Below, piece by piece: positions 31,364 through 44,054 of a stretch of DNA of 64,000 nucleotides. The stretch spans positions 1-64,000 of the forward strand of contig JANRJM010000019.1 in the NCBI GenBank assembly GCA_033763975.1, in the 5' to 3' direction. The translations under genes and the position numbers were made by a program. How positions within the stretch are numbered: the first letter of the stretch is position 1; each line of letters opens with the position of its first letter. The notes beneath the pieces are model-generated. The model did not search any database. It was not told the DNA's origin and saw only the letters and a program-made list of their open reading frames with translations. The stretch comes from Planctomycetota bacterium. Lineage in GTDB: Bacteria; Planctomycetota; Phycisphaerae; Phycisphaerales; UBA1924.

Positions 31364-32440
31364 TCAGGGCATCAGCGCGAACGTCCCCGGCTCGAACGCC
31401 GGGTTGATCTCGATCTCGGTGATCGTCACCTCACGGGGATTCTTGAGGACGTCCTCGCTCGTGAGCACCCAGGCGGTGGGGAGCGTCACGCCCGCGACGG
31501 TGGTGTGCCCGGTGAAGGTGCGGACCATCTCGCCCGCCAACGCGGTGCCGTCGCGCCCGCGGAACGAGAGCTGCGCCGGACGCCCGTCTGCGCCGATGGC
31601 CAGGCGCGTCGTGGCGCCGGCGATGTGCACCAGCACGTAGTCCACCGGGGTCTCGTTCACCACCCCCGCGCCGTCGGGCTTTGCCACGAACCCGGGCTCG
31701 AACCGGGCCTTCAGGATCACCATCGGCGTGTGCGCCGCGTTGCGACGGAATGCACCCGCCCGCGCGCTCGCGAACGGCTTGCGTTCCGTCGCCGTCACCT
31801 CCACGCTCCCCTCGGGCGTTGCGATCGTCGTCCACCACGAGTCGTCCCACGAGTTGCGCTGCGCGAACCGCCCGGGGAACTCGGCCGCGAAGATGTCCCG
31901 CACGTCGTACGCTTTGTCGCCGCTCTTCTGCGAGGTTCGGATCGTCTGGCGATACCCGGTGACGCCCCGCACGGCGTCGGCCCCTCCAGCCCACGCGACG
32001 AACCGGTCCACGATCGCCAGCCCCGCCGCCTGCTCCTCGGGGGTTGGCGTAGGGGCCGCGTCGGCGGTCTCGATGCAACGCGTCGGGTCCTTCAGGAACG
32101 TCGCCTTGCACCCGTCGGACGCAAAGAAGTAGATCCGCCCCGCGTGCACCGCGTACCGGCGCGCGTCGCCGAGCCCGGAGAGCGGGCCCATGCTGCCGCA
32201 CGCCCCGCCGTCCGCGACCTCGTACCGCGCGGGCGCCTTCTCGAACGCGGCCTTGTTCTGGGGCGTCGCGAACAGATAGCCCGTGCCCTCGCGCTCGACC
32301 ATGAGCTCGGGCTTGCCGGGCACCTCGCGCCCGCGAACGAGTTCCACCGGGTCTACCGGCAGCGTGCGGTTCTCCGCGCACTGGGCGTGCACGATGCCGG
32401 CGCCGGCGAGCAGGCTCACGACGAAGAGGGTGTTCCGCAT
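31364..32440 (-). CDS. Secreted protein with duplicated YHS-like segments
   Basis: A 358-residue protein with a signal peptide (about 19 residues, ending IVHAQ). Two YHS-like copies follow: VPGKPELMVEREGTGYLFATPQNKAAFEKAPARY (about 40-73) and YAVHAGRIYFFASDGCKATFLKDPTRC (about 95-121). YHS domains are often metal-associated. The remaining 230 residues are beta-rich and resemble outer-membrane-lipoprotein-sorting-like (LolA-type) folds only in general composition. Function unknown. It is divergent from the MntR gene, 45 bp between start codons, which is a hint of a metal connection but no more. Confidence 0.72.
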   Translation of the reverse strand: MRNTLFVVSLLAGAGIVHAQCAENRTLPVDPVELVRGREVPGKPELMVEREGTGYLFATPQNKAAFEKAPARYEVADGGACGSMGPLSGLGDARRYAVHAGRIYFFASDGCKATFLKDPTRCIETADAAPTPTPEEQAAGLAIVDRFVAWAGGADAVRGVTGYRQTIRTSQKSGDKAYDVRDIFAAEFPGRFAQRNSWDDSWWTTIATPEGSVEVTATERKPFASARAGAFRRNAAHTPMVILKARFEPGFVAKPDGAGVVNETPVDYVLVHIAGATTRLAIGADGRPAQLSFRGRDGTALAGEMVRTFTGHTTVAGVTLPTAWVLTSEDVLKNPREVTITEIEINPAFEPGTFALMP

Positions 32441-32446
32441 GAGCGC

Positions 32447-32452
32447 AGCCTA
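32447..32452 (-). promoter_or_regulatory. -10 box of the YHS-like gene, leaderless spacing
   Basis: On the minus strand TAGGCT ends 6 nt before ATG 32440. Confidence 0.5.
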
Positions 32453-32473
32453 TCAGACGCATGGCCGGTTCAC

Positions 32474-32479
32474 TACCAT
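32474..32479 (+). promoter_or_regulatory. -10 box of the MntR gene, leaderless spacing
   Basis: TACCAT ends 6 nt before ATG 32486. With the facing box at 32447-32452 it forms a compact divergent promoter pair in a 45-bp gap, a natural place for autoregulation by the metalloregulator. Confidence 0.5.
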
Positions 32480-32485
32480 CCGGCC

Positions 32486-33187
32486 ATGCCCAGCGCCACC
32501 GTCGAGGACTACATCAAGGCCATCTACTTTCAGCAGCGAGAATCTGCCGCGGGCGAGGCCACCGTCGTGCGATTGAGCGCCGCCCTGGGCGTCACCAAGG
32601 GCACGGTCACCTCGATGATCCACAAGCTGCGCGACGCCGAGCTCGCGACCGCCGAGCGGTACGGCGGGATCCGGCTGACGACCAAGGGGACGCGCCTGGC
32701 CCTCGACGTCATCCGGCGTCACCGGCTCATCGAGGTGTTCCTCGTGAACGTGCTGCGGTTCAACTGGTCGGAGGTGCACGAAGAGGCCGAGCGCCTCGAG
32801 CACGCCATGTCGCGCAAACTCCTCGACCGGCTCGACGCCTTCCTGGGGCACCCGGAGATGGACCCGCACGGCGACCCCATCCCCGACGCGCGAGGACGCA
32901 TCGCCGCGCCCGCCGAGATGCCGCTGCGCACCCTCGCCAAGGGCGAGCGGGGCGTGGTGTCGCGCGTGCGCGACGACGAGTCGGCGTTCCTGGAGTTCGC
33001 GGCCCGGCACGGGCTCACGCCCGGCGCGCACGTCATCGTCGTCGACGTCGTGCCCGAGGCCGAGTCGCTCCGCGTGCGACCCCGCGCCGGACGCGAGGTC
33101 GCGATGTCGTTCGGCGCGGCCGACAAGATCCTGCTCCGGCGCGAGGTTCCCCAGCGCCGGGGCACGAGTTCGACGCTGCCGCGATGA
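32486..33187 (+). CDS. DtxR/MntR-family metal-dependent repressor
   Basis: A 233-residue regulator. N-terminal winged helix: VEDYIKAIYFQQ, then VVRLSAALGVTKGTVTSMIHKLRDAELAT (recognition helix) and IRLTTKGTRLAL. The metal-binding/dimerisation domain has RRHRLIEVFL and EEAERLEHAMS with the usual His and Glu ligands, then MDPHGDPIPD. The C-terminal 75 residues form an FeoA/SH3-like domain (GERGVVSRVRDDESAFLEFA). It is first in the metal-uptake locus and presumably represses it when Mn, Fe or Zn is ample. Leaderless start. Confidence 0.93.
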   Translation: MPSATVEDYIKAIYFQQRESAAGEATVVRLSAALGVTKGTVTSMIHKLRDAELATAERYGGIRLTTKGTRLALDVIRRHRLIEVFLVNVLRFNWSEVHEEAERLEHAMSRKLLDRLDAFLGHPEMDPHGDPIPDARGRIAAPAEMPLRTLAKGERGVVSRVRDDESAFLEFAARHGLTPGAHVIVVDVVPEAESLRVRPRAGREVAMSFGAADKILLRREVPQRRGTSSTLPR

Positions 33188-33253
33188 GTGTTTGACTGCT
33201 CGAACTTCACCCCGTACCATTGCCGGGGCCCCATCGGGCCCGGGAGGCGGCAT

Positions 33254-34360
33254 ATGCGCGCGGTGCTGGCACGGACGGCGGCGATCGCCGGAGATCGCGG
33301 GTGGCGCGGCGGACGGAGGCGTCGCCCGCGACAGACGCCTGGCAGGCCGGGGGCGTTCCGCCATGCGGGCGGATTCATCATGCTCGCGATGCTGCTCGCC
33401 CCGGCGATCTGCTTCGTCGCGGGCGCAACCGGCTGCGATCGGCCGGCGCCGAAATCGCCAGAGCCCCCGACGCCGCGAGAGACATACGCGGCGGTCGCGA
33501 CGGTGGGCATGGTCGCGGACGTCGTCCGCGAGGTCGCGGGCGATCGCGCTACGGTCGCGGGCCTGATGGGCGCGGGCGTCGACCCGCATCTGTACAAGCC
33601 CACGCGCAGCGACGTCGAGCGGCTGCTCGCTGCGGACGTGATCTTCTACAACGGGCTGCTGCTGGAAGGACGCATGACCGACACGCTCGTCCGGGCCGCG
33701 TCGTCGGGCAAGAAGGTGCACGCCGTCACCGAACTGCTCGACGAGCAGTACCTGCTCGAGCCCGAGGCCATGGAAGGGCACCCGGACCCGCACGTGTGGA
33801 TGGACCCCCGCGCCTGGGCGAAGGCGGTGGAAGTCGTCCGTGACACGCTCGTCGAGTTCGACCCCGCGGGCGAGGCCGGGTACCGGGCCCGCGCGGACGC
33901 GTACCTCGCCCGGGTCGCCGAGCTCGACGCGTACGCCCAGCGCGTGCTGGGCAGCGTGCCCGAGGGCCGGCGGGTGCTCGTGACGGCCCACGACGCGTTC
34001 AACTACTTCGGGCGCCGGTACGGGTTCGAGGTCGTCGGCATCCAGGGCCTCTCGACCGAGTCGGAGGCGGGCGTGCAGGACATCGAGCGCCTCGTGAGCC
34101 TGCTGGTCGACCGAAGGATCGGCGCGGTCTTCGTCGAGTCCACCGTGTCGTCGCGCAACGTCGAGGCGCTCATCGCCGGGGCGAGGGCGAAGGGGCACGA
34201 CGTCGCCATCGGCGGGCGCCTCTTCAGCGACGCCATGGGCGACGAGGGCACGTACGAGGGCACGTACATCGGCATGATCGACCACAACGTCACGGTGATC
34301 GCGCGAGCGCTGGGGGGCGAGGCGCCCGAGGGCGGCATGCAGGGCAGGCTGGGCAAGTAG
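33254..34360 (+). CDS. Metal ABC transporter substrate-binding lipoprotein (ZnuA/MntA-type)
   Basis: A 368-residue cluster A-I binding protein. An unusually long basic N-region (about 40 residues) precedes the hydrophobic segment, which ends in AGATGC, a weak lipobox with Cys near residue 60. Metal ligands: [21 protein letters not shown] and a late Glu/Asp region ([12 protein letters not shown] and MIDHN). The spacer and the His-His pattern fit Mn, Zn or Fe binding. A GGAGG Shine-Dalgarno lies about 7 nt before ATG 33254; TACCAT at 33217 gives a roughly 30-nt leader. The ATPase gene follows 14 bp later. Confidence 0.92.
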
Positions 34361-34374
34361 GAAGGACACGCGCC

Positions 34375-35205
34375 ATGGAAGGCAACGCGCAGCAGGCGTC
34401 CGCAGCACCGGGCGTGTTCCGGCGTCCGGAGCACTCGGCGCAGAGCCCGCTCTCGGTGCACGCGGTGACGGTCGCGTACGACCGCAAGCCGGTGCTGTGG
34501 GACGTGGACTACGACGCGCCGCCGGGGAACCTCATCGCCATCGTGGGCCCCAACGGCGCGGGCAAGAGCACGCTGATCCGCGCGTGCCTGGGGCTGGTGC
34601 CCCGTGCGTCGGGGCAGGTGGCGTTCTGGGGCGAGGACTACGCGCGGGTGCGCGGGCGCATCGGCTACGTGCCGCAGCGCGAGAGCGTGGACTGGGACTT
34701 TCCCGTCTCGGCCCTCGACGTGGTGTGCATGGGGCGGTACCGCAGCATCGGCTGGTTCCGCCCGGTGACGAGGCGCCACCTGGACGCGGCCCGCGCACAC
34801 CTGGAGCGCGTCGGCATCGCGCACTTGGCGGACCGCCAGATCAGCCAGCTCTCCGGGGGGCAGCAGCAGCGGGTGTTCCTGGCGCGGGCCCTGGCGCAGG
34901 AGGCGGACCTGTACTTCATGGACGAGCCGTTCGCGGGCGTCGACGCCGCGACCGAGCGCGCGATCCTCGAAGTGCTCCGCGCGATGCGCGCCGGCGGCAA
35001 GACGGTCATCGTGGTGCACCACGACCTGCAGACCGTCGCCGAGTACTTCGACCACGTCATCCTGCTCAACATGCGCGTGGTGGCGTCGGGCCCGGTCTCG
35101 CAGGTCTTCACGCGCGAGAACCTGCAGAAGACCTACGGCGGGCGGCTGACGCTGCTCTCCGAGGCGTCCGAGGCCCTCGCGCGGGCGGCGTCGGGAGACC
35201 GCTGA
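34375..35205 (+). CDS. Metal ABC transporter ATP-binding protein
   Basis: A 276-residue ABC ATPase: Walker [10 protein letters not shown] (near residue 60), Q-loop [19 protein letters not shown] typical of Mn/Zn importers, signature LSGGQQQR, Walker B LYFMDEP and H-loop VVHHD. It powers uptake through the two permeases that follow. Its stop codon overlaps the first permease start by one base (TGATG). A 25-residue flexible N-terminal tail precedes the domain. Confidence 0.95.
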
Positions 35206-36593
35206 TGCTCGCGCCCGCGCCCGCCGACTGGCCGACATTCGACCGCGTGCTCGACACGCTCCTCCTCCGCGCGGGCTTCAACACCAACACGGTCATCATC
35301 GGCACCACGCTGCTCGGGCTGGCGGCGGGCGTGGTGGGGGTGTTCGCGCTCCTGCGCAAGCGATCGCTCACGACCGACGCGCTCAGCCACGCCACGCTGC
35401 CGGGCATCACGCTCGCCTTTCTCATCGTCTCCGCCTTCGGGGGCGAGGGCCGCTCGCTCCCGGTGCTGCTGCTGGGCGCCACGGCGACGGGCGTGCTCGG
35501 CGTCGTGTGCATCCAGGCGATGCTGCGCCACACGCGCCTGCGCGAAGACGCGGCGATCGGCGTCGTGCTCAGCGTGTTCTTCGGCGCGGGGGTCGTGGGC
35601 CTCAGTTACATCCAGAAGAACGCGTCGAGCGGCGCCGCGGGCCTCAACACGTTCATCTACGGGCAGACCGCCGCCATGCGCGTGTCGGACGCCTGGCTCA
35701 TGGGCGGGCTGGCGATCGGCGCGGTGGCGGCGTCGGCGGCGCTGCTCAAGGAGTTCACACTCGTCTGCTTCGACGATGCGTTCGCCAAGGTCGGCGGGTG
35801 GCCGGTGTCGCTGATCGACCTGCTGATGATGGCGCTCGTGGTGCTGGTCACGGTCGCGGGGCTGCAGGCCGTGGGCCTCATCCTGGTTGTCGCCATGCTC
35901 ATCATCCCGGCGGTGTCGGCGCGATTCTGGACGCAGCGCCTGTGGCTGCTCGTGGTGCTCGCGGGCGTGATCGGGGCGACGAGCGGGTACCTGGGGTCGG
36001 TGCTCTCGGCGCTCCTGCCCCGCAAGCCAGCGGGCGCGGTGATCGTGCTCACCAGCGGCGTGATCTTCGGCGTGAGCCTGATGGGCGCGCCCGCCCGCGG
36101 GTTCGTCGCCTCGGCGGTGCGCCGCGTGCGCACGCGGCTGGGCATCGCGACGGACCACCTGCTGGAGGTGGCGCACGACCGGCGCGACGGACGCGGCGCC
36201 GGGCTCAGCGCGCGCGACGTCGCGGGCGTGGGCGCGGAACGGGGCTGGCCCGCGTGGTTCGGGCGCGCGGTCCTCTGGACGCTGCGGGCGCGGGGCCTGG
36301 CGACCACCGATGAGGGCGGGCTGCGCCTGACGGACGCCGGACGGTCTCGCGGGGCGCGCGTGAGCCGCAACCACCGCCTGTGGGCGCAGTATCTCATCAG
36401 CCACGCGGACGTCGCGCCCAGCCACGTGGACTGGTCGGCGGACCAGGTAGAGCACGTGCTGCCCGACGAGGTGGTGGAGGCGCTCGAAGCGCAGCTCGCG
36501 GAGGGTGCGGGCGTCCGATCGGGGAGCGATTCGGGCGGCGCTGTGACGGGTTCGTCGCCGCAGCCGCCGGCGCCTGGGAGGGCGCACGCGTGA
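35205..36593 (+). CDS. Metal ABC permease fused to a DtxR-like domain (first)
   Basis: A 462-residue protein. Residues 1-290 are an ABC-3 family permease with eight or nine helices: RKRSLTTDALSHATLPGI, GAAGLNTFIYGQTA, and GLILVVAMLIIPAVSARF. After the last helix, residues about 305-430 form a soluble module similar to DtxR/MntR: TDHLLEVAHDRRDG, a winged helix region, LRLTDAGRSRGARVSRNHRLWAQYL, then DWSADQVEHVLPDEV. The His of HRLW and the Glu-His of VEH align with regulator metal ligands; others are changed. A disordered Gly/Ser/Pro tail ends the protein. Coupled to the ATPase by a 1-nt overlap and to the next permease by 4 nt. Confidence 0.88.
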   Translation: MLAPAPADWPTFDRVLDTLLLRAGFNTNTVIIGTTLLGLAAGVVGVFALLRKRSLTTDALSHATLPGITLAFLIVSAFGGEGRSLPVLLLGATATGVLGVVCIQAMLRHTRLREDAAIGVVLSVFFGAGVVGLSYIQKNASSGAAGLNTFIYGQTAAMRVSDAWLMGGLAIGAVAASAALLKEFTLVCFDDAFAKVGGWPVSLIDLLMMALVVLVTVAGLQAVGLILVVAMLIIPAVSARFWTQRLWLLVVLAGVIGATSGYLGSVLSALLPRKPAGAVIVLTSGVIFGVSLMGAPARGFVASAVRRVRTRLGIATDHLLEVAHDRRDGRGAGLSARDVAGVGAERGWPAWFGRAVLWTLRARGLATTDEGGLRLTDAGRSRGARVSRNHRLWAQYLISHADVAPSHVDWSADQVEHVLPDEVVEALEAQLAEGAGVRSGSDSGGAVTGSSPQPPAPGRAHA

Positions 36594-37912
36594 CGCTCTC
36601 GCCCGGCGCCGATCTTTTTCCCTTGCTGGCGGGCGTGCTCGCGGCGCTCACGTGCGGGCTGCTGGGCAACTTCCTGGTGCTCCGGCGCCTGAGCCTGATG
36701 GGCGACGCGATCAGCCACAGCGTGCTGCCCGGGCTCGTCATCGCGTTCATCGTGTCGGCCACGCGCAGCCCGGTGGCGATGTTCGTCGGGGCGGCGGCGG
36801 CGGGGGTGGTGACCGTCGCGCTCGTGGAACTGGTGAAGCGACTGGGGCGGGTCGAGCCGGGCGCGGCGATGGGCGTGGTCTTCAGCGTGCTGTTCGCGCT
36901 GGGCGTGCTGCTGGTCGAGCACGCCGCCCGCGCGGTGGATCTCGACGCCGATTGCGTGCTGCACGGGCAGCTCGAGACCCTCGCGTGGTATGGCGCGCCG
37001 GCGCGCTGGGGCGAGGTCGGGCTCACCGAGGCGATCAACGCCGCCCCGCGCCAGGTCGTCGTGCTCGTCGTTGCGTGCCTGGCGACGGCGGCGTTCGTCA
37101 CGCTGCTGTTCAAGGAACTGCGCCTGGCGGCGTTCGACCCCGGGCTCGCGACGGTGCAGGGGTTCAGCGCCGAACTGCTGCACTACGCGCTCATGATCTT
37201 CGTCGCGATCGCCACCGTCGCGTCGTTCGAGGCCGTCGGATCGATCCTGGTCATCGCGATGCTCGTGTGCCCGGCGGCGTCGGCGCGGATGGTGACCGAT
37301 CGGCTGCGCGCGCAGATCCTGTGGAGCGCCGGGTTCGCGGTCGCGGGGGGCGTGCTGGGGTACGTCGCGGCGTCGGGCGTGCCGGCGCTCTTCGGCAAGG
37401 ACAGCGTCAACGCCGCGGGCTCGATGGCGGTCGTCTCGGGCATGATCCTCGCGGGCGCGATCGTCGCGTCGCCCCGGCACGGGCTGGCGGCGAAGTGGCT
37501 CCGGCGCCGCGCGCTCGCCGGCTCGGTAGGCGTCGATGACGTGCTGGGCGTGCTGTTCCGTGCGCGCGAGGGTGGGCGCACGCGGGTCGCGCTGGCGGCG
37601 CTGTCGCCCCTCCCGCTCGGGCGCCCGCTCGACGCCGTGCTCGCTCGCGCCGCGCGGGACGGCCTGGTGACCCTGCACGCGGCCGAGGTCGAACTGACCG
37701 GGCGCGGGCTGAGCGCCGCGGCGAACGTCGTGCGGCGGCACCGCCTGTGGGAGTGCTACCTCGTCGCCGAAGCGGGCGTCGCGCCGGATCACGTGCACCT
37801 GAGCGCCGAGCGCCTGGAGCACGCGCCGGTGCAGCCGGGCTCGGATGCCCGCGCAGACCCGCACGGACGGGTGATCCCGGCGGTGTCGGAGCCCCCCAAC
37901 CTCGGGCACTGA
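36590..37912 (+). CDS. Metal ABC permease fused to a DtxR-like domain (second)
   Basis: A 440-residue protein. Residues 1-290 are an ABC-3 permease (GNFLVLRRLSLMGDAISHSVLPGLVIAF, LLFKELRLAAFDPGLA, SILVIAMLVCPAASARM). Residues about 308-435 form a DtxR-like module: GVDDVLGVLFRAREGG, LARAARDGLVTLHAAEVELTGRG, NVVRRHRLWECYLV, SAERLEHAP and DPHGRVIP. The blocks RRHRLWE, ERLEH and DPHG...IP match the stand-alone regulator encoded 3.4 kb upstream, including likely metal ligands. GTG start overlaps the first permease stop (GTGA), with GGGAGG upstream. It ends the metal operon. Confidence 0.88.
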   Translation: MTLSPGADLFPLLAGVLAALTCGLLGNFLVLRRLSLMGDAISHSVLPGLVIAFIVSATRSPVAMFVGAAAAGVVTVALVELVKRLGRVEPGAAMGVVFSVLFALGVLLVEHAARAVDLDADCVLHGQLETLAWYGAPARWGEVGLTEAINAAPRQVVVLVVACLATAAFVTLLFKELRLAAFDPGLATVQGFSAELLHYALMIFVAIATVASFEAVGSILVIAMLVCPAASARMVTDRLRAQILWSAGFAVAGGVLGYVAASGVPALFGKDSVNAAGSMAVVSGMILAGAIVASPRHGLAAKWLRRRALAGSVGVDDVLGVLFRAREGGRTRVALAALSPLPLGRPLDAVLARAARDGLVTLHAAEVELTGRGLSAAANVVRRHRLWECYLVAEAGVAPDHVHLSAERLEHAPVQPGSDARADPHGRVIPAVSEPPNLGH

Positions 37913-38041
37913 CCGGGTGTTTCGCGGGCCGGTTATCTGTCGCCGGTCCGTCTGCGCGCAGAACCGCGCGCTCGCCGAGGCGCGAGTCCGACCGCCGCGC
38001 CACAGCACGGCGTGCCCCGGGCCGATAGTGGAACGCCTCCT

Positions 38042-40747
<2,706 letters not shown>

Positions 40748-43556: not shown

Positions 43557-44054
43557 CAGCCTCCCTGCGCCCCGAGTTGAAGACGGGGCCGCTGTCGCTT
43601 CCATCCGGACTTTGCAGGATTGAACCGACCCCGCGCGACCCCGGAGGCCCGCAAAGCCTCCGAAGTGCGCGTGCACCTGAGGCGATGGCGGTGTATACTC
43701 ACTCTGCACAGCGCGGTAATGGGGCCAGGCTAACTCCTCTGGGGATTGTCGAGCCAAACCGGACTTGACCGCAGGAAACCGCAGTCTGGAAGGGCCAATC
43801 GCAGATGAATACCAACTCTCATAGCCGGGTGCCCTGGGCCGCCCACCCTCGGACCGACGGCTCGCCTCGCATCCGATCAGATGCACCAGTCAAGCCCGTG
43901 GTTGTGAGGACAGGTCCTGCCCGGTGTGGGCAACTTCGCGGAATGGGAAGGAAGGGGTCGAACTTGAGCTCTCAAACTCTCCCTGTCCGCGCGATGACAC
44001 GGTGTTCGACTCGGGGGGGGGGCGAAATGGAAGTGCGCGGCGCGGTTTGACTGG
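43557..44054. other. Region between the sigma relic and the HAF-repeat gene
   Basis: About 500 bp of lower-GC DNA without a convincing gene. It holds a good -10 sequence TATACT (43694-43699), possibly the promoter of the HAF-repeat gene with a long leader. An open frame from ATG 43805 to 44050 encodes 81 residues without similarity; another in-frame ATG is at 43994. A G10 tract (44013-44022) ends the region. Confidence 0.4.
44013..44022 (+). repeat. Homopolymeric tract of ten G
   Basis: Ten consecutive G residues lie 32 bp before the only in-frame start (TTG) of the HAF-repeat gene. Losing one G would join ATG 43994 to the HAF frame without a stop codon, giving a better signal-peptide N-terminus. 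Confidence 0.85.

Follow-up and report, generated by a model that had tools for sequence, protein, structure and literature searches.

Feedback of an imported substrate on its own ATP-binding cassette (ABC) importer has been described for methionine and for molybdate/tungstate. In the respective systems, MetNI and ModABC, inhibition of the importer by its cytoplasmic substrate (trans-inhibition) is established (PMC10710835). The accessible part of that article mentions neither a manganese, iron or zinc ABC importer nor a gate with a DtxR fold, and the word DtxR is absent from its text. Another related system is YtgCR of Chlamydia trachomatis (CT069, ytgABCD), in which, according to the accessible parts of two papers, the permease YtgC is fused to the DtxR-like YtgR and cleaved to yield an iron-dependent repressor (PMC5599777, PMC7755916). 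In the present work, a DNA stretch of 64,000 nucleotides from a planctomycete of the order Phycisphaerales (assembly GCA_033763975.1, contig JANRJM010000019.1, positions 1 to 64,000; hereafter the window) was analyzed. Positions 32486-37912 form a single metal-uptake locus consisting of genes for a stand-alone regulator, a substrate-binding protein, an ATPase and two permeases, and each of the permeases ends in a DtxR/MntR-type module with a conserved metal site and a decayed DNA-binding part. An earlier note on this DNA knew of no functional description of such a fusion, which has to be corrected in view of YtgCR; for further descriptions, the papers listed from the open-licence literature, judged by titles and abstract starts, gave the Chlamydia papers only. 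As far as our searches of this literature reach, the principle of feedback and the fusion are thus both known, while their combination in a metal importer with paired DtxR sensors that apparently do not bind DNA is new.

The two permeases and their putative sensor modules are located as follows:

35205..36593, + strand: permease 1, 462 amino acids (aa), PsaC-like membrane part followed by a C-terminal module
36129..36521, + strand: sensor module of permease 1, residues 309-439, conserved H390, D409, D413, E416 and H417
36590..37912, + strand: permease 2, 440 aa, GTG start, PsaC-like membrane part followed by a C-terminal module
37514..37894, + strand: sensor module of permease 2, residues 309-435, conserved D317, H384, E388, H403, E410, H411 and D423-P424

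The division into an ABC-3 membrane half and a DtxR-like C-terminal module, which the earlier note had read from the letters, was confirmed by Pfam matches above the cut-offs in both proteins. For ABC-3 (PF00950), E-values of 7.8e-53 (180.1 bits) in permease 1 and 1.5e-40 (139.8 bits) in permease 2 were obtained (cut-off 20.1). Past the membrane part, Fe_dep_repr_C (PF02742) was matched with 1.3e-11 (44.7 bits) and 2.7e-12 (46.9 bits), respectively (cut-off 27). These PF02742 matches are not due to chance, since the domain was found again in 119 of 122 family members, comprising all 60 permease-2 and 59 of the 62 permease-1 members. The DNA-binding model PF01325 gave no match at E<=1 in either permease and was matched in the stand-alone regulator. 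Also, the short motifs described before were found again, with RRHRLWE, ERLEH and DPHG located in permease 2 and HRLW and VEH located in permease 1.

For both permeases, single-chain AlphaFold2 models were generated from alignments of 62 rows (permease 1) and 60 rows (permease 2), with mean predicted local distance difference test (pLDDT) values of 89.9 and 92.9, respectively. In both models a part resembling a winged helix precedes the helices of a metal-binding and dimerisation domain, which is the two-domain fold of DtxR/MntR regulators. Residues 310-435 of permease 2 superimposed on DtxR (1g3t) with a Z score of 15.7 (root-mean-square deviation (rmsd) 2.5, 125 residues). For the module of permease 1 a Z score of 10.1 was reached (rmsd 4.0, 119 residues), with unrelated winged-helix proteins at about 9 in the same list; the fold alone is therefore an unsure guide here, and the assignment of this module is settled by PF02742. 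The membrane parts resemble the permease of PsaBC from Streptococcus pneumoniae (7KYO/7KYP), with Z scores of 32.4 for residues 1-302 of permease 2 against 7kyp and 33.6 for permease 1. In contrast to the window permeases, the PsaBC chains of 258-290 residues align to the membrane part and have no C-terminal module. In both models the last membrane helix continues without a break into helix 1 of the module (residues 299-327 in permease 2 and 300-327 in permease 1), and this predicted continuity speaks against a proteolytic release of the modules.

The conserved residues of the metal site correspond to the MntR ligands D8, H77, E99, E102 and H103 and to the ancillary DtxR ligands H79, E83 and H98. 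Permease 2 has D317, H384, E407, E410 and H411 at the primary MntR positions. Permease 1 has H390, D413, E416 and H417, no clear ligand at the helix-1 position, and A394 at the position equivalent to E388. In the permease-2 family (n=60; 59 of 68 candidate references plus the window's own protein), H384, E388, H403, E410 and H411 were each present in 60/60 and D317 in 57/60. As the candidates had been sorted by a DPHG-like tail, the conservation of D423/P424 is biased in this alignment, and the degraded downstream module L114 thereby fell outside it. The permease-1 family (n=62; the window's protein and 61 hand-sorted references, with the degraded upstream module L130 left out) kept H390 and H417 in 58 members each, D409 in 59, E416 in 60 and D413 in 55, with E at the last position in five others. 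A motif-free recount was based on loci selected by the presence of a relative and included L114 and L130. It comprised 278 permeases (268 distinct), 230 of them with at least 110 aa after the membrane part, including 110 upstream and 100 downstream modules. Here, the equivalent of H384 was found in 101/110 upstream and 94/100 downstream modules, that of E410 in 108/110 and 99/100, and that of H411 in 101/110 and 99/100. At the positions of H77, H98, E99, E102 and H103, upstream modules carried H-D-D-E-H in 84 of 110 cases, and 91 of the 100 downstream modules carried H-H-(E, D, H or M)-E-H. Upstream and downstream modules are therefore two distinct types, each with a conserved ligand pattern of its own. 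The core H/E/H was kept in both modules in 81 of the 92 paired loci with two modules. Neither of the two outcomes that the earlier note had named as refuting was thus observed: the fold is predicted, and loss of ligands across homologues was confined to a minority.

The DNA-binding half behaved differently. At E<=0.01, PF01325 was matched in 0/60 permease-2 and 0/62 permease-1 members, and at E<=0.05 in none of ten further proteins (nine fused permeases and one protein without membrane part), several of which weakly matched other winged-helix families. As a control, stand-alone regulators of the window and of loci from the same scan contained PF01325 and PF02742 together in 31/31 cases; this set (30/31 regulators and the window's MntR) had been picked by similarity to the stand-alone regulator model, so that completeness is expected. 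Mean pairwise identity of the winged-helix core in the fused modules was 0.23 upstream and 0.22 downstream, close to the values for shuffled sequences (0.18 and 0.17). In the same proteins, the metal and dimerisation part reached 0.55 upstream and 0.49 downstream and the membrane part 0.49 in both. The core of stand-alone regulators had an identity of 0.37, with 0.41 in the long and 0.52 in the short type. This comparison excluded modules lacking the key histidine (9/110 upstream, 6/100 downstream) and pairs more than 75% identical in the membrane part. The distance between the positions of MntR D8 and H77, taken from one alignment throughout, was 68-74 (standard deviation 1.3) in 63 stand-alone regulators and ranged from 51 to 103 in upstream and from 54 to 89 in downstream fused modules. 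Such a selected metal site beside a far less selected DNA-binding part is the pattern expected if a sensor has ceased to read DNA, and suggests that the pump senses internal metal and regulates itself. A tryptophan three residues past the H77-position histidine, present in 227/230 fused modules versus 1/67 readable stand-alone regulators, further suggests that the fused modules are a separate functional class. They share with DtxR, IdeR and MntR the fold, the metal and dimerisation domain and most ligand positions, but differ in their poorly conserved core without a match to the DNA-binding family model and in being anchored to a permease.

In our view, there is slightly more than an even chance that the modules are paired metal sensors which gate the importer by trans-inhibition, with repression left to the stand-alone MntR. 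According to this proposal, each permease would carry a cytoplasmic DtxR/MntR-type module that retained the metal-binding and dimerisation half and lost the DNA-binding role. In permease 2, helix 1 coming from the membrane would bring D317, at the D8 position of MntR, to H384, E388, H403, E407, E410 and H411. The two modules would probably pair via their old dimerisation surfaces beneath both membrane halves. Cytoplasmic metal filling the sites might then stiffen the modules and keep the transporter at rest, whereby uptake would stop at once, and scarce metal would let the modules loosen. Gene repression would be a separate, slower job of the stand-alone MntR at a palindrome over the promoter. 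Such a gating role, the first of two considered by the earlier note, is supported indirectly by the conserved ligands, the DtxR fold and the helix continuous with the membrane domain. As a proposal, it is similar to MetNI and ModABC, in which, according to the accessible part of the source, a regulatory domain loaded with cytoplasmic substrate halts the pump (PMC10710835).

Several findings weigh against this reading. The winged helix still folds in both AlphaFold2 models, and the net charge of the fused core is positive as in stand-alone regulators, so that nucleic-acid binding is still possible as judged by charge. Long stand-alone regulators also show a less conserved core (0.41) than metal part (0.57), and therefore the contrast described above is partly a property of the family. 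In downstream modules the E99 position varies (E 55, H 16, D 13 and M 12 of 100), and the first, H77-position histidine is lost in 9/110 upstream and 6/100 downstream modules. In one family with four loci (L099-L102; genomes G055, G140, G122 and G083) this histidine and some other ligands are lost in both modules, while the C-terminal extensions are retained on both permeases and a stand-alone MntR is located nearby. One partner is degraded in seven more loci, among them L082, which was judged to be a reading-frame artefact. Two modules per transporter are also dispensable in some cases, because 12 of 121 paired loci have the upstream and 6 the downstream module only. In ModBC, the regulatory domain is part of the ATPase and not of the permease. 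The same location is given for the regulatory C2 domain in the accessible description of MetNI (PMC10710835), in contrast to the DtxR-fold modules on the permeases of the window.

The 121 paired loci had been found by similarity. Both permeases carried full modules in 92 of them, and besides the loci with one module there were six in which a full module upstream was combined with a short extension downstream, and five with no full module; three permease pairs were without any module. The loci L072, L075, L076, L078, L083 and L084 have a full-ligand upstream module and a downstream extension of 85-97 residues without the metal domain. Among 41 genomes (the own genome and relatives), both permeases were fused in 23, one of two in four, and a single permease in one, and none was fused among the matches listed for 13. 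In 149 genomes sampled evenly from the phylum, at least 39, counted by eye, had a match from the start of the membrane part to model position 396 or beyond. At least 23 had two such matches (24 if one truncated at a contig end is counted), which in G064, G126 and G144 are at separate places. A public genome collection was scanned as well, and its best 80 loci were retained. The nearest of them belonged to metagenome-assembled genomes (MAGs) of Phycisphaerales and others were labelled Verrucomicrobia, Latescibacterota, Omnitrophota and Spirochaetaceae; isolates among them include Roseimaritima sediminicola, Bythopirellula polymerisocia, Tautonia sociabilis and Aeoliella straminimaris. MAG labels are fallible, as L151 (labelled Gemmatimonadota) is nearly identical to L148 (labelled Latescibacterota). 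In 13 loci with labels of the Verrucomicrobia type, the module was present upstream only in nine, on both permeases in two, and on none within the stretch examined in two; a look inside Verrucomicrobiota covered five genomes. No Chlamydiota locus was among the best 80 of this one scan.

A tree was calculated from 99 sampled rows with 90 columns, with the modules drawn at random from those with both histidines and 28 long stand-alone regulators included. A single, weakly supported branch (83/19) split these regulators from the fused modules, a result compatible with a single origin of the latter and no more. Upstream and downstream modules were mostly apart. We tentatively propose, at somewhat less than even odds, a class of metal ABC importers in planctomycetes, Verrucomicrobia and MAGs labelled as other phyla. 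In this class, a DNA-binding metalloregulator would have become a non-identical pair of allosteric sensors, one per permease, acting as a heterodimeric metal switch under the channel for trans-inhibition, and YtgCR would represent a derivative or a parallel development, with the same fused sensor cut free for DNA. If true, this would provide an evolutionary setting for the unusual Chlamydia protein. For experiments, the sequence record offers residues to mutate and natural controls, namely genomes with two, one and no modules as well as a family whose sites are degraded.

Two further arrangements were observed. In L093-L098 a single permease has a C-terminus of about 223-231 residues including a stretch past the metal domain, with a weak FeoA match in L093 (E 0.0014), and these proteins are possibly closer to the arrangement of YtgCR. 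At L063:6601-7689, a DtxR-like protein without membrane part shows the permease-type tryptophan (HRLWE), PF02742 and FeoA, with no PF01325 match, and adjoins a complete stand-alone regulator; it is perhaps a module freed from a permease.

The other genes of the locus and its regulatory sites are:

32486..33187, + strand: stand-alone MntR/DtxR-family regulator, 233 aa, with winged helix, metal/dimerisation and FeoA/SH3-like domains
33190..33205, strand not applicable: operator-like palindrome GTTTGACTGCTCGAAC, overlapping the -35 hexamer
33192..33220, + strand: sigma-70-like promoter TTGACT-17-TACCAT, the sole site found by a promoter scan of 32300-38100
33254..34360, + strand: substrate-binding protein of the importer, PF01297 ZnuA, start codon uncertain
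34375..35205, + strand: ATPase subunit, nearest NCBIfam model MntA, below cut-off

The stand-alone regulator matched PF01325 (9.5e-10), PF02742 (5.9e-33) and PF04023 (1.1e-12) as well as the structure 5zr4 (E 1.8e-41). For the substrate-binding protein, AztC and MntC were the nearest NCBIfam models, both below cut-off. The 25 Pfam families listed for the ATPase were all ABC_tran or other P-loop NTPase models, with no regulatory domain among them. The product of the operon is an ABC importer for divalent metal of the PsaBC/MntABC type, most likely for Mn2+ and possibly for Fe2+ or Zn2+. Mn2+ is likely in view of the nearest NCBIfam models of the transporter parts, which are mostly manganese/zinc systems, all those shown being below cut-off. 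In the own genome (3.27 Mb, 97% complete) three PF02742 matches were found, namely the regulator and both permeases. A second permease of the ABC-3 type is located there at G000 contig C14:21391-22176; its match spans the membrane part only (model positions 11-272) and has no sensor module.

The promoter-like site lies between the MntR gene and the transporter genes. The core of the palindrome (33191-33204) has one mismatch to TTTGA-N4-TCAAA, and two such matches occur in the window at 0.09 expected. Across 125 loci, in which the presence of a regulator was judged within the stretch fetched, this motif (up to one mismatch) was found 5′ of the transporter genes in 15/35 loci with a long MntR, 1/35 with a short MntR and 11/55 with no regulator seen, compared with about 0.3% in shuffled sequence. 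The difference between long and short types has a Fisher p of about 1e-4, which is post hoc, as the motif was spotted by eye in some loci and counted on the same set. The operator-like palindrome fits control by the stand-alone regulator, and due to the 11 palindrome loci without a nearby regulator another reader of the site is conceivable. A second palindrome class, TTAG-N4-8-CTAA, was present in 20/125 loci.

These data bear on the second role considered by the earlier note, in which the modules are repressors tethered at their own promoter. A YtgCR-like repressor, cleaved or membrane-held and repressing the operon when loaded with metal, would account for the winged helix and the positive core charge of the modules. 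Like the permeases of the window, the Chlamydia protein has a metal permease and, C-terminal to it, a DtxR/TroR-like module within one open reading frame (ORF) of a metal-importer operon. Its parts are thus ordered alike, and according to the accessible parts of its description its cleavage yields an iron-dependent repressor (PMC5599777, PMC7755916). The longer modules of the single-permease systems L093-L098 point in the same direction, as do the 11/55 palindrome loci with no regulator seen, although the genome of L165 has a 244-aa ORF with PF02742 on another contig. In Chlamydia, however, the fusion is described for YtgC (PMC5599777, PMC7755916). The window differs from it by modules of two types on both permeases, a decayed DNA-binding half, an unbroken junction helix and a separate MntR. 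The DNA-binding half of the fused modules has lost most of its identity, which is near the shuffled background, as well as its fixed length and its PF01325 match (0/122 and 0/10 versus 31/31 stand-alone regulators). Furthermore, there is no linker at the junction helix, a complete MntR, the only other PF02742 match of the genome, heads the locus, and the type of operator-like site tracks the long stand-alone MntR. Since the DNA-binding half has decayed and a complete MntR with an operator-like site is present, the tethered repressors are not supported; a cleaved or tethered repressor was dropped as leading reading on the conservation of the DNA-binding half, and we regard it as improbable.

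Metal binding without gating, as an ion chaperone or buffer or as a metal-stabilised pairing of two different permeases, is unlikely too, but less so. It explains conserved ligands without a conserved DNA-binding part and two types of modules on two different permeases, and it tolerates loci with one module. Yet the fold that was retained is known for a metal-dependent change between its two halves in DtxR and MntR, and pairing does not strictly depend on the modules, as 3/121 permease pairs are without one. Modules that are mere relics of an ancestral fusion of permease and repressor, and that persisted by inertia once the stand-alone MntR had taken over, would fit the decayed DNA-binding part and the four genomes of one family in which key ligands are gone in both modules beside a stand-alone MntR. 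Evidence against this is the retention of the E410 and H411 positions in nearly all modules and a metal part as conserved as the membrane part; both indicate purifying selection, and we consider a relic highly improbable. Gating by paired metal sensors remains the reading we favor.

Some minor observations concern the regulatory sites. The second match to TTTGA-N4-TCAAA in the window is located at 43963-43976 (CTTGAGCTCTCAAA, one mismatch). In the own genome outside the window, 32 matches with two or three mismatches were found, amounting to 33 in all versus 10 for the reversed pattern. The promoter that the earlier note had placed at 32441-32485 was rejected, as the scan found none there. Instead, an inverted repeat with perfectly matching arms of 9 bp (CATGGCCGG / CCGGCCATG) and a loop of 11 bp extends from 32460 to 32488 across the start codon of the MntR gene, and could conceal this start codon in the RNA.

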